A DNA stretch of 64,000 nt, taken from positions 1,798,001 to 1,862,000 of the forward strand of contig NZ_CP036150.1 of NCBI RefSeq assembly GCF_008329965.1, in the 5' to 3' direction. The notes beneath the pieces were generated by a model that saw only the letters and a list, made by a program, of their open reading frames with translations, had not been told where the DNA came from and ran no database searches. This DNA is from Oceanispirochaeta crateris (GTDB lineage Bacteria; Spirochaetota; Spirochaetia; DSM-2461). The translations under genes and the position numbers were made by a program. This document shows, piece after piece, positions 51,293 through 57,528 of the stretch (position 1 is the stretch's first letter; each line of letters starts with the position of its first letter).

Positions 51293-52579
51293 TTATTTAT
51301 ATATCGGAAAATCCTCACATAAAGATTGAACCTTTTTACCGATTTCGTCAATTTTATTTTTTTCGCCGCCACTTTTTAGAATGGCACAGACATAGTCTGC
51401 GATCATTTCCATTTCTTTTTCCTTCATGCCCCTGGAGGTTACTGCCGGAGATCCGATCCGTACTCCTGAAGTAATAAAGGGACTCTTCTGATCAAATGGA
51501 ATGGCATTTTTATTCACTGTGATTTGTGCCAGATCCAGCCAGGCTTCTGCTTCCTTGCCGCTGACACCAAGGGGAGTCAAATCGACAAGCATGAGATGAT
51601 TATCAGTTCCACCGGAGACGATTCTCACACCACCGGCTTCCAATGCTTTGGCTAGAGCAGCCGCATTTTTAACAACTTGCTGCTGGTATACTTTAAAATC
51701 TGGCTGAAGGGCTTCTTTGAATGCAACTGCTTTTGCTGCAATGATATGCATCAAAGGTCCACCCTGCATTCCTGGAAAGATCGCCCCATTTACAATCTCA
51801 GACCAGTTCTTAACTCGACCGGATTTAGCTGCCACAATACCAAGATCATTTTCACCGTCTTTTCCCATGAGGATCATTCCACCCCGGGGGCCCCTCAGTG
51901 TCTTATGAGTTGTGGTGGTTGTAAAGTGGGAGTCCTTCAGAGGTGAAGGATGGCAGTCTGCGGCGACAAGTCCGGCAATATGAGCCATGTCTGTCATCAA
52001 ATAGGCACCGACTTCATCCGCAATGGATCTGAATTTTTTAAAATCAAGAACTCTAGGATAGGCAGAGGCTCCTGCAACAATCATTTTGGGTTTGCACTCT
52101 TTTGCCGTCTTGAGAAGCTCATCATAATCAATTGTTTCTGTTTCTTTATCCACACCATAACTTACAATATTGTAGAGTTGGCCCGAAAAATTGACTGGAG
52201 AACCATGGGTGAGATGCCCTCCATGTGACAAATTCATTCCCAGGACAGTGTCTCCAGGCTTACATACAGAAAAGTAGACTCCCATATTTGCCTGGCTTCC
52301 CGAATGGGGCTGTACATTGACATATTCACAGTCGAAGAGTTCTTTTGCTCTGGCTACCGCCAGATTTTCAGCTTCATCAACAAACTCACATCCACCGTAA
52401 TATCTTTTTCCGGAATATCCTTCAGCATACTTGTTTGTCAAAACAGACCCTGCAGCTTCCAATACAGCCTTGGAAACAATATTTTCCGAAGCAATAAGCT
52501 CCAGATTACCCTTCTGTCTGTTCAGTTCACGACCCATGGCTGCAAACAGCTCCGGATCAAAGTTCTGTAATTCAGTCAT
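51293..52579 (-). CDS. glyA: Serine hydroxymethyltransferase
   Basis: 428 residues, complete. [14 protein letters not shown] carries the PLP lysine, and the N-terminal [19 protein letters not shown] is highly conserved. It interconverts serine and glycine and makes methylene-tetrahydrofolate. GAGGAG lies 8 nt before the ATG. The upstream region is unusual: it holds the 68-bp tandem repeats, and a 22-codon open frame from the nearest repeat ends on the glyA start codon (ATGA overlap). The cNMP regulator follows on the same strand. Confidence 0.96.
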
Positions 52580-52644
52580 CCACCCAACTCCTCATTTAAT
52601 ATACTCTCGAGAACAATATCCCGTTCATTGGCTTTCAATAACAT
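52576..52644 (-). other. 22-codon upstream open frame overlapping the glyA start
   Basis: ATG 52644 lies in the repeat copy nearest glyA. The frame reads [20 protein letters not shown] and ends GG, with its TGA sharing bases with the glyA ATG (52577-52579). Upstream of the ATG is only AGGGCC, so its translation is doubtful. A frame this short can occur by chance. Confidence 0.2.
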
Positions 52645-52813
52645 GGCCCTGGTGATTATTCAATTAAGGCCTAAGGAATTAAGTTCCTCTTGCCCTACCA
52701 GCGCCAAAACATGGCCCTGGTGATTATTCAATTAAGGCCTAAGGAATTAAGTTCCTCTTGCCCTACCAGCGCCAAAACATGGCCCTGGTGATTATTCAAT
52801 TAAGGCCTAAGGG
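52641..52813. repeat. 68-bp tandem repeat, about 2.5 copies, between the transglutaminase-like gene and glyA
   Basis: Copies begin at 52641, 52709 and 52777 (each with ACATGGCCCTGGTGATTATT), and the first two match each other exactly. The third stops at the CCTAAGG near 52812, where the 3' end of the transglutaminase-like gene begins: its last codons and stop (LGLN then TGA at 52796-52798) lie in that copy. The unit therefore combines the gene's 3' end with the following intergenic bases, which fits tandem duplication or slippage. Each unit holds an AGGAA-CTTAA-TTCCT hairpin and an AAGGCCTT-type palindrome. No coding role is apparent. Confidence 0.92.
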
Positions 52814-54409
52814 TATTATAGCAATATCCTTGTAGATTATGGAACAGCTATCCAGGTTTCCCAGCCATTCTGCATAAAGACTTTGACGACTGTAATCACA
52901 AAGAGCATTAAGGCGGCTTTTATCATAGAGAGGCATGTACTCCTGTTTGCCCTTTGAAAAGGCAATATGACCCGCATCAAGGGCTCCCCAGCCCGCTAAT
53001 GACTCTTCTTCCCCCAGCCAGGGGGCCAGAACACCATCAGCCGCAGCGGGATCGGCAGGAAACCAGCCAAACTCCGGTAGATAGACTTCCACCCAGTGGT
53101 GAGTAATGCCGGTTGATCCATCTGGCGGCAGCCAGATCCCCGAGACAATCCGGGAAGGAATCTCAACAGACCGGCTCAAAGAAACCAAAAGAGACGCATA
53201 CCCAAGAGAATCTGTTTTCCTCGTCTGAAGCCATTGATCAGGGTCCCTTGCAGGGTTTTCAAGATCCGGTTCCATTTTCCAGACAACATAATCAAACAGA
53301 AGCTCTGCCTTTTTGTAGGGATTCACCTCTCTTTTAATGACAGCTAATGCGGTCCTTCTGAAATCTGAGGAAGGAAGTTCTGCTGTGTCTTCCAGCCAGG
53401 GTTCAAGCATGGACTGGTTCTTGTACCCATGAGGAATCTCATTCCCATCCAGTTCATAACGAAGATCCCTGAGTTCCAGCTCATAAACACGCCGCAGCTG
53501 CCGTTTTTCGCCGCTTTCTAGCTCGTTGAGAATGAGAAGAGAATCATCCGTGCCATAGCTGGAATCAAGGGCCAGAATCTGTTGCCCCGGATTCAGCTGT
53601 ATCTCAGGAATTCTAAGAGCCAAGGCATTCCCTGGAAAAGCAGCGATGTGAGAGATGTCCACGTCCTGTTGAATTTTAATATTTTGAGATTCACCCAGCA
53701 CAAGTTCCGCTTTTGATAGAACATCAATCCTCACTGGATTGCTGTAGCCCGAAGCCGTATGGAGGTAAAGTGGCCCGCTTTGGGCCTGTTCCGGAAGAAA
53801 AAACGATACAACATCATCTTCCCAGCTGTAGATATGACTCTCAGGAACCCCTAGAAAATGTTCTTCATCGGGAAGATCAAGTACACTCTCAGGAGCTTCT
53901 CCAGAAAGACTCACAAGAATACGGCTATTTTTTTTCCGCATTCCCATCTTATCCCCTTTTAGGATAACAAGATCTCCGGGGAAAAAGCTTCTGTCATTGA
54001 TACCGGCCAGGTAGGGCTTTCCCGGAAGGAATGCACCGGAAGAGAGGTCCGGAACCCTTTCGGAAAGGATGAACAGGGCTCCATTACTTCTGCCTCCTGT
54101 TGTTTCAACAGAAATGAGTCCGGAGCTATTTATGGGAGGGACTCTGACTTTCAGAGTATCTTCTGACCAGGACTCGATGAAGGAGGCGGTGAGAGGACTT
54201 TTATCCAGAAAAACTCTAGATTTCCCTCTGTTCGCACCAAAATGCTGTCCATTGAGAACAATAAGATCTCCGGGACTGACCCTGGATGGCTCTATAGAAA
54301 AAATAACCGGCTGTGTTCTGGAAACAGACAGGCTTGCCGCATAGAGTAATACAATCAGAGCAAAAAGTGCCCCCGGTATGAAATGATTTATGAGAATTTT
54401 TTTATTCAT
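52796..54409 (-). CDS. IPT/TIG and transglutaminase-like domain protein with Cys-to-Ser change
   Basis: 537 residues with an N-terminal membrane anchor or signal (about 12-30). Two IPT/TIG-like Ig folds follow (about 35-115 and 125-230; [20 protein letters not shown] and [17 protein letters not shown]). The transglutaminase-like domain covers about residues 355-500. At the catalytic Cys position it reads [13 protein letters not shown], where C-x-D-F-A is expected; the His (HHWVEVY) and Asp (FPADPA) are kept. The Ser is encoded TCT, one base from TGT. It may bind rather than cleave. AAGGA precedes the ATG. It is the last gene of the ECF sigma operon. Confidence 0.82.
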
Positions 54410-54429: not shown

Positions 54430-54987
54430 TCAGTTCCCTTTATTTTCTACATCGGGAACGGTCTCTCCTGCAAGAGTCTTTTCTATCAGATAGGGATAGA
54501 TCTTCAAGATCATCTCGATATGAATCTGGTTTGGATTTTTCAGATCTTCAAGTTTCCCAAGGGGGTAAAAATAGATCGTTTCATCGTAATCCAAAGGTAT
54601 ACTTTTCATGCTGGTAAAATACCTGAGATTCTCAGGACTCGTCTCCGTGGCGGCTTCTTTTAGCCATATTTCACTCTGAGCCACCAGGATCAGACCGCCA
54701 GGTGTCTTTCTGTAGGGAGTAAAGTGGACTGAAAGTCTAGCCTGATCATTCTGCATGTGTATGGTTACAGGACGGCCGGGAATGGTTAGTTTTTCCAACT
54801 CGGATTGCCACATAACGTTTTGAACATCATGAAACAGTTTGGCTTGAATATGTACGGTTAAAGCCTCTTTGAGGAGCTCTTCCATATTGGCATCAGAAGG
54901 AGCAGAATCCTTCTCCTCCTGAGCCATCATTCCATTCACGAAGAACAATGAAAGAATGAGTCCGATTGTCAGTGTTTTACGCATCAA
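54430..54987 (-). CDS. Hypothetical secreted protein of the ECF sigma operon
   Basis: 185 residues with a signal peptide (about 1-22). The rest is soluble with mixed alpha/beta character, no Cys, and no recognised domain. Its ATG overlaps the anti-sigma stop by 4 bp, so it is co-translated with it. The context suggests a periplasmic partner or target of the sigma/anti-sigma pair. Confidence 0.7.
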   Translation of the reverse strand: MMRKTLTIGLILSLFFVNGMMAQEEKDSAPSDANMEELLKEALTVHIQAKLFHDVQNVMWQSELEKLTIPGRPVTIHMQNDQARLSVHFTPYRKTPGGLILVAQSEIWLKEAATETSPENLRYFTSMKSIPLDYDETIYFYPLGKLEDLKNPNQIHIEMILKIYPYLIEKTLAGETVPDVENKGN

Positions 54988-55553
54988 CGGGATGAGCCCC
55001 CGGCAAAGCTGGCAGTGCGGATAAGCTGAGAATCCCCATGAAGTGCCAGATTCAGGTCCCCAGGCAGACTCAGACTGGATTCCTGGCTGAATAGACTGCT
55101 ATCAGATTGATTGATCAGTGAAAGCATGGCTTCTATATCTTCCCCTGGAATCATCATGTCTCCAGGAGGAACTGACCATCCATCGGAGACAGCAAGAGGC
55201 ATATCCATATAGCTGGCAGAAGGTCCGGGAGAACCGGACATAGAGAAACCTAAAAAGAAAGCCAAAACCGCTGCCGCCGCAGCAGCCATTGAAAAAATCG
55301 GTTTTTTTACTGCTGGTAGAAAAGAATGGACTTCTACATTTTCTTTATGCCGGATGAGCCTCTGTAGATCTTCATAACTTGTAGAGACATCAGGTTCCGT
55401 TTCAGAAAGAAGAAGATCCGACTGAGCTCTGAAGCTCTCAAGAACGGCATGACATTCTTTACAGACATGAATGTGTTCTTCAATTTTCTCTTTCCAGGGA
55501 CTGGAAACCTCACCATCATAATAGGCAGACAACAATTTGTCGTCAGGGCACAT
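54984..55553 (-). CDS. Anti-sigma factor with N-terminal zinc-binding (zf-HC2-like) domain
   Basis: 189 residues from ATG 55553, placed by GGGGGAAG just upstream and overlapping the sigma stop by 11 bp. Cys and His residues CPDD near the N-terminus and HIHVCKECHA (HxxxCxxC) form the ZAS-type anti-sigma domain. One membrane segment lies near residues 90-110 (FSMAAAAAAVLAFFLGF), followed by an extracytoplasmic tail of about 80 residues rich in Ser. It would hold the ECF sigma until an envelope signal arrives. Confidence 0.86.
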   Translation of the reverse strand: MCPDDKLLSAYYDGEVSSPWKEKIEEHIHVCKECHAVLESFRAQSDLLLSETEPDVSTSYEDLQRLIRHKENVEVHSFLPAVKKPIFSMAAAAAAVLAFFLGFSMSGSPGPSASYMDMPLAVSDGWSVPPGDMMIPGEDIEAMLSLINQSDSSLFSQESSLSLPGDLNLALHGDSQLIRTASFAGGSSR

Positions 55554-56058
55554 AGACTTCCCCCTTATCAAGGATTTCACTCAGTTTCTGTCTGGCACGA
55601 AAGACACGTATTTTAACATTTCCTTCAGATATTTTCAGAATTTCTCCAATCTGCTTGTAGTTGAGGTTGGCGTATTCCTTTAAGGTCAGCACCACCCGCA
55701 TCTTATATGGCAGCTTCATAAGCGCTTCCTGAATGAGTTTTTTTGACTCATCCTCCATAAGCCCCTTCTCACCCTGATTGATCACCTCGGGTTTGGGCTC
55801 ATGATAATGTTTCTGATAAGCGTTCCTCTCCCGGCCCTTCCTCTTTTCATGATTGTAAGCCAGGTTTTTTACAACACGGATCATCCAGTACTTCGCTTGT
55901 TCTCCAGGTGGAATCTTATCCATCCGTTCATAGTAACGGACAAATGCCTCCTGGCAAAGGTCTTCACTAACTTCCGTACTGCCCGTAATCCTGTAAGCAA
56001 CACGTATCAAAACAGGGTAAAAATCTTTATATGCTAGCTCAAAGTCGTCAGACACCAA
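55543..56058 (-). CDS. ECF-type RNA polymerase sigma factor
   Basis: 171 residues. Region 2 shows LCQEAFVRYYERMDKIP and region 4 KLPYKMRVVLTLKEYANLNYKQIGEILKISEGNVKIRVFRARQ in pattern, typical of the SigE/RpoE-like ECF group. The start is TTG 56058 (or the GTG one codon on), with GAGGG upstream. It is followed by its anti-sigma gene with an 11-bp overlap. It should turn on its own operon, which reaches down to the transglutaminase-like gene. Confidence 0.92.
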   Translation of the reverse strand: MVSDDFELAYKDFYPVLIRVAYRITGSTEVSEDLCQEAFVRYYERMDKIPPGEQAKYWMIRVVKNLAYNHEKRKGRERNAYQKHYHEPKPEVINQGEKGLMEDESKKLIQEALMKLPYKMRVVLTLKEYANLNYKQIGEILKISEGNVKIRVFRARQKLSEILDKGEVYVP

Positions 56059-56112: not shown

Positions 56113-57528
56113 TCATTTTTTTTTCCATTTTGGACCGTCAGGAGAATCGATGATCTGAATTCCCTGTTCCAACAGCTGATCGCGGATTTCGTCAGACCTC
56201 TTAAAGTCTTTATTTTTACGCGCTTCCTGCCGCTCAAGAATGAGTGCTTCGATATCCTTATCAAGATTATCGGACTGATCATTGTCTTCTGGAACTTCGT
56301 CCAGTTTCAGTCCAAGGATTCTATCCATATCCATGATGAGAGTCAGTTTCTCAGCGGTAGTAAGTTCTTTATTCTTCAAAAGGCTCCAGAGATCGGCCAG
56401 GGCTCTGGGAGTATTGAGATCGGCGGCCATATGGTCCTGAAAATCCTTTAGAACAGCCTTTCCCGCCTCTGACAGAGTAGAAAGTTCTCCGGGAGTAGCC
56501 TCTTTTTTCATAATCGCAATTTTTCGAACAAGTGACTCTCTGGCGGAACGGGAGGCATCCAGGGATTCCCAAGAAAAGATCAGTTGCGAACGATAATGGC
56601 CTCCTAAAAGGAAATACCGGTAATCCAGAGGATCATAGCCCTTGTCAATTAGATCCTGTAAAGTGATAAATCCACCCTTGGATTTTGACATTTTTCCGTT
56701 TTTCATGAGAAGAAACTCATTATGAAGCCATACATTGACCCATTTGCAGCCATTGGCGGCTTCTGACTGGGCGATTTCGTTTGTATGGTGAATGGGAATA
56801 TGGTCCACACCGCCGCAGTGTATATCAAAATGGGGTCCCAGGTATTTGCAGCTCATAGCCGAACACTCTATATGCCATCCGGGATAACCCTTTCCCCAGG
56901 GAGAATCCCAGGTCATGGCCTGATCCTCAAACTTGCTGTTGGTAAACCAGAGAACAAAATCGGTGTAATTCTTTTTATTTTCGTCGACAGCCACACGGGC
57001 GCCATGCTGAAGATCCTGGTTTTCAAGATTTGCCATACGGCCGTATTCTGGAAATTTTGCCGTATTAAAGTAAACATTCCCTCCAGCGACATAGGTGTAT
57101 CCCTTGTCTTCCAGGGTTTTAACCATATCGATCATATCCTGGATGTGCTCGGTAGCCTTGCACACTTGAAGGGGTGTCTTAATATTCAGTCTCTGGGAAT
57201 CTTTAAAAAAAGCGTCCGTAAAATGCTTGGCAATATCCCAAACCGTCATGCCCTGCTCCCGGGCACTCTTGATCATCTTATCTTCGCCATCGTCGCCGTC
57301 ACCTGTAAGATGCCCCACATCTGTCACGTTCATGACATGATTGACCTTGTAGCCGGCATATTCCAGAGTCCTACGAAGAACGTCTTCATATGTATAGGCC
57401 CGCATATTACCAATATGGGCATAATTGTAAACTGTGGGTCCACAGCAATACAGTCCAACTTGTCCCTCAACAAGGGGGCGAAAGTCCTGCAGGAGCCGTC
57501 CATCCGAATTCATCAGTTTCAATTTCAC
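56113..57528 (-). CDS. cysS: Cysteine-tRNA ligase
   Basis: 471 residues, starting with GTG 57528 about 8 nt after GAGGT. CGPTVYNYAHIGNMRAY carries the zinc Cys and the HIGH motif, and KMSKSKGGF is the KMSKS loop. GGVDHIPIHHTNEIAQ and the C-terminal helical domain are normal. It charges tRNA-Cys. The ECF sigma gene follows 54 nt downstream; murB is divergent. Confidence 0.96.
   Translation of the reverse strand: MKLKLMNSDGRLLQDFRPLVEGQVGLYCCGPTVYNYAHIGNMRAYTYEDVLRRTLEYAGYKVNHVMNVTDVGHLTGDGDDGEDKMIKSAREQGMTVWDIAKHFTDAFFKDSQRLNIKTPLQVCKATEHIQDMIDMVKTLEDKGYTYVAGGNVYFNTAKFPEYGRMANLENQDLQHGARVAVDENKKNYTDFVLWFTNSKFEDQAMTWDSPWGKGYPGWHIECSAMSCKYLGPHFDIHCGGVDHIPIHHTNEIAQSEAANGCKWVNVWLHNEFLLMKNGKMSKSKGGFITLQDLIDKGYDPLDYRYFLLGGHYRSQLIFSWESLDASRSARESLVRKIAIMKKEATPGELSTLSEAGKAVLKDFQDHMAADLNTPRALADLWSLLKNKELTTAEKLTLIMDMDRILGLKLDEVPEDNDQSDNLDKDIEALILERQEARKNKDFKRSDEIRDQLLEQGIQIIDSPDGPKWKKK

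Follow-up and report, generated by a model that had tools for sequence, protein, structure and literature searches.

A predicted envelope protein of spirochaetes with a transglutaminase fold and no catalytic cysteine

Gene cluster and distribution

Within the window, the stretch of 64,000 nucleotides of the Oceanispirochaeta crateris genome analysed here, a tight run of genes comprises cysS, an ECF sigma factor, an anti-sigma factor, a protein of 185 aa and, as its last member, a gene for a transglutaminase-fold protein that we call PTG, for pseudo-transglutaminase, a name coined in the present analysis. PTG occupies 52796..54409 and encodes 537 aa, as read from its open reading frame, Pfam matches and an AlphaFold model, and all genes, domains and residues given below lie, like PTG itself, on the minus strand; the coordinates, strand and frame in the original prediction were all correct. 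The ECF sigma factor (55543..56058) contains the Sigma70_r2 and r4 domains and scores 97.1 bits against TIGR02937 (cut-off 42.9). The anti-sigma factor (54984..55580) combines a zf-HC2 domain (PF13490, 24.3 bits, cut-off 22.2; alignment A3) with a hydrophobic segment, and its translation may really begin a few codons into the ORF. Next to PTG lies the small protein, here p185 (54430..54987), which has an N-terminal hydrophobic helix followed by a beta fold and belongs to no Pfam family. Its AlphaFold model reached a pLDDT of 84.9, and among the 50 Foldseek matches listed all TM-scores (by query) were below 0.4. The run is headed by the gene at 56113..57528, which we take to be cysS, and the gene downstream of PTG at 51293..52579 is presumably glyA. 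A perfect 68-bp tandem repeat of 2.5 copies (52640-52812) runs across the last PTG codons into the spacer before glyA, covering some of it; genome-wide, with up to three mismatches allowed, a 37-base piece of this repeat turns up only at the three places within it.

We searched 392 genomes drawn from the phylum with a PTG profile (E ≤ 1e−15, up to three candidates scored per genome) and obtained matches in at least 199 of them, many of the same-class matches being full length and some being core-only or paralogues. Judged by these matches, proteins of the PTG family are common across one class of spirochaetes. We fetched 113 loci and read their triads, with about 40 further full-length same-class matches lying outside this sample, and neighbour maps were drawn for 106 of the 113, the other seven having given no target ORF with a simple ORF picker. 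Upstream of PTG, the anti-sigma cluster was found at 89 of the 106 mapped loci, the ECF sigma cluster at 87 and the cysS cluster at 86, while the glyA cluster lay downstream at 28. The p185 cluster sits directly upstream of PTG, between it and the anti-sigma gene, at 53 of the 106 and does not appear in the family f3 maps. Because BLAST was the sole means of clustering the neighbour genes, a gene that seems absent from an individual locus may have been overlooked. Relatives of cysS were present in all 18 genomes searched for them. PTG had been placed at the end of an ECF sigma operon, and the maps agree: it stands last after the ECF sigma and anti-sigma genes, in an order kept in most of the mapped relatives.

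Domain architecture and fold

The AlphaFold model of PTG, built with 99 aligned sequences (alignment A2), has a mean pLDDT of 93.3 and, together with Pfam, gives a domain order from the N to the C terminus of a hydrophobic helix, two IPT/TIG-like domains, a beta region and a transglutaminase core; the model segments are a helix at residues 3-30, beta domains at 35-115 and 133-230, the beta region at 234-320 and then the core. The helix at residues 3-30 (54320..54403), hydrophobic by reading of its residues, would be a signal anchor or signal peptide, and the remainder of PTG is thus probably exported to the periplasm. The first IPT/TIG domain (residues 34-109, 54083..54310) scores 35.9 bits against PF01833 (cut-off 20.9) and superposes on the corresponding domain of the cyclodextrin glucanotransferase 1cgt (Z 14.7, rmsd 1.9, 85 aligned), the likeness to cyclodextrin glucanotransferases extending to sequence as well as fold. 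The second (residues 133-230, 53720..54013) is a beta domain in the model for which Pfam gave no match, even when residues 118-233 were scanned separately. Of the two IPT/TIG domains originally predicted, Pfam confirms the first, and the second stands here as a Pfam-silent domain of the model. Two TIG stretches were recognised by Pfam in six of seven whole relatives scanned, and one stretch in L089, the nearest of the seven. The fold of the first domain is common to cyclodextrin glucanotransferase, Bacteroides surface glycan-binding proteins, plexin and Met, but in those proteins it stands beside other domains, whereas in PTG it stands beside a transglutaminase core.

The beta region ahead of the core (residues 234-320, 53450..53710) consists of strands in the model and falls within the best match to a solved structure, that of residues 235-536 to 3isr (Z 19.2, rmsd 4.2, 249 aligned), titled a putative cysteine protease from Cytophaga (C. 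hutchinsonii). The core itself (residues 355-454, 53048..53347) scores 69.7 bits against the Transglut_core family PF01841 (cut-off 23), and in the predicted model it also resembles Streptococcus pyogenes TglA (9crn; Z 13.3, rmsd 2.9, 138 aligned), human transglutaminase 3 (TG3, 1l9m; Z 11.5, rmsd 3.0, 150 aligned) and TgpA (6g49; Z 10.7, rmsd 4.0, 190 aligned). An NCBIfam scan of PTG gave nothing above cut-off and a defence-system scan gave no match. By profile and modelled fold, PTG belongs to the transglutaminase-like superfamily, and its core fold is intact in the prediction.

The active site

PTG shares with the PF01841 superfamily (3isr, TglA, TG3 and TgpA) the profile, the fold and the His and Asp of the triad, but its family departs from that superfamily in the catalytic Cys. 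In PTG the nucleophile position is occupied by Ser401 (codon TCT, 53207..53209), the first residue of a model helix spanning 401-414, and the alignment places His437 (53099..53101) and Asp453 (53051..53053) at the His and Asp positions, so that the original reading of a Ser in place of the Cys with His and Asp kept was right. We compared 104 of 115 sequences (the window's protein, 113 best hits and the second hit L196b), 101 of which form the ingroup of the tree described below. Across the ingroup, the Cys site holds Ser in 43 rows, Ala in 36, Pro in nine, Thr in five, Val in three and Asn, Ile, Gly, Asp and Cys in one each. Cys is absent from 100 of the 101 and occurs in four of all 104 rows, namely L179 and the three outgroup rows. 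Ser is encoded at the site by TCN in 34 rows and the window and by AGY in eight rows. The window's own family contributes 21 full-length orthologues, the window's protein among them: 18 have Ser, one each has Ala, Thr and Asn, and none has Cys; the Ala is found in the window's own genus (G006) and the Thr in a close relative (G007). The His position carries His in 91 ingroup rows, Trp in five (fetched rows of genus g6) and Tyr in five (two of them from g5), and nine Ser-bearing members have replaced it, five with Trp and four with Tyr. Asp453 is identical in 104 of 104 rows, and Glu441 is conserved in 98.

These counts bear on several points of the original prediction. Alignment had been proposed as a way to see whether Ser is fixed among homologues, and it is not, given the range of residues above. 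Cys-bearing homologues, named as evidence against the prediction, number just one within the ingroup (L179). That TCT differs from TGT by one base is true but carries little weight because Cys is absent from nearly the whole ingroup. A sequencing error at Ser401, also raised there, is excluded, since relatives from other genomes carry Ser and the nearest of them (70% identity) has the same TCT codon. Ser, Thr, Asp, Asn, Pro, Ala and Gly are frequent at helix starts; as the Cys site begins a helix, their suitability there would explain the mix of residues without any chemistry.

Two sequences of the sample stand apart. L179 (4038-5642) has the sole Cys-His-Asp triad of the ingroup, with codon TGC, and groups with Ala-bearing relatives; it is possibly a regained enzyme. 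L195 (3935-5431) has no residue aligned at the Cys site and Thr at the His position, a pattern suggestive of further decay of the core.

Phylogeny of the nucleophile position

The tree was rooted on three Cys-bearing sequences (L196, L196b and L197) chosen by the analyst as outgroup, and it is a quick tree that drew warnings of long branches and of two long-branch joins. It omits L107 (an N stretch, with the gene in two pieces), L108 (at a contig edge), L195 (divergent), L198 (distant), the partial L185 and L186 and the near copies L129, L168, L172, L178 and L194; among the omitted sequences, Cys is present in L198, no residue can be read at the site in L107, L108 and L195, and the other seven lack Cys. 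By parsimony on the 104 rows, no fewer than 32 changes are needed at the Cys site, close to the median of 35 for the 107 core columns. Elsewhere in the cleft, His437 changed four times (only to Trp or Tyr), Glu441 six times and Asp453 and Trp439 not at all. When the residues are scored as Cys or non-Cys, two changes suffice, one at the split of outgroup and ingroup and one at L179. These sequences would be explained most simply by a single early loss of Cys, after which the site drifted among residues that are mostly small or suited to helix starts, with Cys regained once. With a chosen outgroup and a quick tree with long branches, a single loss is likely but short of proven.

L196 (2134-3402) and L197 come from another class of the phylum and, like PTG, have TIG and a transglutaminase core above cut-off. 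They differ from PTG in keeping Cys-His-Asp and in having one TIG stretch, and their short mapped neighbourhoods contain no ECF or anti-sigma cluster. At L196 (828-3402), two Cys-bearing transglutaminase-core genes lie adjacent, one of them with TIG. In the genome that encodes the window's PTG, there are three other Transglut_core matches, all with Cys, two of which are weak partial matches.

PTG and the sigma factor system

One reading of the gene order is that PTG is an envelope sensor, whose dead cleft would bind a stress ligand, for instance misfolded protein or free peptidoglycan peptides, and which, perhaps with p185, would release or block the anti-sigma factor. The order cysS, ECF sigma, anti-sigma, (p185), PTG recurs across many families at the frequencies given above, and the zf-HC2 domain and hydrophobic segment of the anti-sigma factor also suit such a role. 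We nevertheless consider this reading rather unlikely, as genome content speaks against it from two sides.

The first concerns family f5, which is Borreliaceae-like. PF01441, which we take to be the OspC-type lipoprotein family, was found in four of six f5 genomes, in none of five others and in none of 14 controls. At the four mapped f5 loci (L199, L200, L228 and L229) the order is murB, cysS, PTG, glyA, with no ECF sigma or anti-sigma gene between. The anti-sigma profile had no match in any of the six f5 genomes, each of which has just two sigma-70-type genes; their open frames, near 630 and 277 aa, are not of ECF size. The f5 proteins are divergent: the two scanned score below the Transglut_core cut-off of 23 (19.5 bits for L199, 18.1 bits for L228), and TIG was found in one of them. 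We assign f5 members to the PTG family because the A1 profile matches them (6.8e−35 for L228, 2e−39 for L229) and because of their gene order.

The converse is seen in family f12 and in G081, which we take from its gene order to be T. pallidum-like. The anti-sigma profile matched in 10 of 11 f12 genomes and in G081, but no full-length PTG match was found in 12 f12 genomes or in G081. Core-only matches occur in the f12 genomes G355 and G275, on contigs other than that of cysS. The 11 anti-sigma-bearing genomes are silent for the PTG profile except for the core-only match in G275. Of ten f12 stretches, eight have ECF sigma and/or anti-sigma genes near cysS or murB with no PTG behind them, one (L233) stops just past the anti-sigma gene and one (L234) has neither gene. 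Remnants of PTG behind the f12 anti-sigma genes were sought in three genes, and these gave one DUF362 match and two proteins with no Pfam family. In G081, cysS, ECF sigma and anti-sigma are followed by unrelated genes; TP0092 of T. pallidum is described as sigma-24 (PMC4368718). In a further genome, G303 of family f16, glyA comes after cysS with no ECF sigma, anti-sigma or PTG gene. On this comparison of genomes, the link between PTG and the sigma system is real as gene order and obligatory in neither direction, which weakens the case for PTG as an obligate anti-sigma sensor.

Proposed function

We think it probable that PTG is an envelope pseudoenzyme whose core forms no acyl-enzyme and serves instead for binding or as an adaptor. 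The loss of the nucleophile while the fold, a ring residue and Asp are retained favours a pseudoenzyme. The original prediction of a catalytically dead binding protein is supported as regards "dead" by the absent Cys and the drift of the site, and binding is what we infer. In the mechanism that we propose, the hydrophobic helix would anchor or export PTG, and the two IPT/TIG-like domains and the beta region would hold up the core. The core would have lost its nucleophile early in the class and so would no longer form the acyl-enzyme. Its cleft still has Asp453, Trp439 and, at position 437, His or a different ring residue, and would let the core bind or act as an adaptor, the partner probably being an envelope component that carries a peptide. 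PTG would usually be made together with the ECF sigma and anti-sigma factors and is likelier a co-expressed part of the envelope than an obligatory piece of a switch. Against the pseudoenzyme reading stands the one ingroup member with Cys-His-Asp, and the strong conservation of His and Asp could stem just from the needs of a stable fold, or from a reaction in which Cys plays no part.

The closest working parallel to PTG, by analogy, appears to be fungal Cyk3, whose transglutaminase-like domain has likewise lost the Cys and conserved the His and Asp and which acts on yeast wall synthesis (PMC4758748). A version of Cyk3 with both His and Asp changed to Ala no longer stimulated chitin deposition at the septum but still bound chitin synthase, and the bare transglutaminase-like domain showed no two-hybrid binding to chitin synthase (PMC4758748), so the parallel does not speak for the cleft as the contact site. 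Cyk3 comes from yeast, includes an SH3 domain and has an architecture different from that of PTG, and we draw the likeness at the level of the shared fold. As a tentative possibility, PTG may be a class-wide bacterial counterpart of Cyk3, in which, after early loss of the nucleophile, the His-Asp cleft was selected as a binding site controlling envelope or peptidoglycan assembly, normally wired to an ECF stress sigma factor and kept in the Borreliaceae, which lack a sigma factor of ECF type.

Could the retained His-Asp pair instead perform another chemistry, or bind metal, with no need for a Cys? The invariance of Asp453 and the strong conservation of the His position and Glu441 would suit such a role, but the ten ingroup rows with Trp or Tyr in place of His fit packing or stacking better, and we regard it as improbable. 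The residues kept in PTG are those of the ordinary transglutaminase core motif. The other option of the original prediction, a Ser-based enzyme in which, at least among the Ser-bearing members, Ser401 would be the working nucleophile of a hydrolase with a Ser-His-Asp triad built on a transglutaminase scaffold, can draw on Ser being the commonest residue at the site with His and Asp kept, but it is unsupported and very improbable because Ser varies to Ala, Pro, Thr, Val, Gly, Asn, Ile and Asp, including the Ala in the window's own genus and the Thr in a close relative, and the site drifts like an average residue while nine Ser-bearing members have replaced the His.

Transglutaminase-fold pseudoenzymes are already known, for example in yeast. 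The pseudoenzyme that we favour for PTG would be one retained in most sampled families of a bacterial class, with a fixed place beside ECF sigma and anti-sigma genes. Its nucleophile position has drifted and the remainder of the active site has hardly changed, a situation that offers a clean way to test what purpose a dead transglutaminase cleft serves. Among the papers listed by searches of the open-licence PMC literature, which leaves out most subscription papers, none treats this family as a pseudo-transglutaminase.

The Borreliaceae orthologue

In Borrelia burgdorferi, BB0600 lies between BB0599 and BB0601, which we take to be cysS and glyA, and this is the cysS-PTG-glyA order of the Borreliaceae-like loci L199, L200, L228 and L229. 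BB0600 is probably the Borreliaceae orthologue of PTG. A published passage gives bb0600 a cyclodextrin-transglycosylase domain, which fits the TIG domain of PTG, and considers the gene for chitin use, the transglutaminase core going unmentioned in that passage (PMC2845121). PTG as a binding pseudoenzyme would offer a probable function class for a protein kept by Borreliaceae-like genomes with chromosomes of about 0.9 Mb. Many spirochaetes, Lyme-disease-type bacteria included, would then carry an old PTG that most likely binds rather than reacts. As noted for L228 (2784-4349) and L229 (2632-4179), the residue at the nucleophile site in Borreliaceae-like genomes is apparently Ala, judged by eye, in genus g12, and it is Ser in genus g32.
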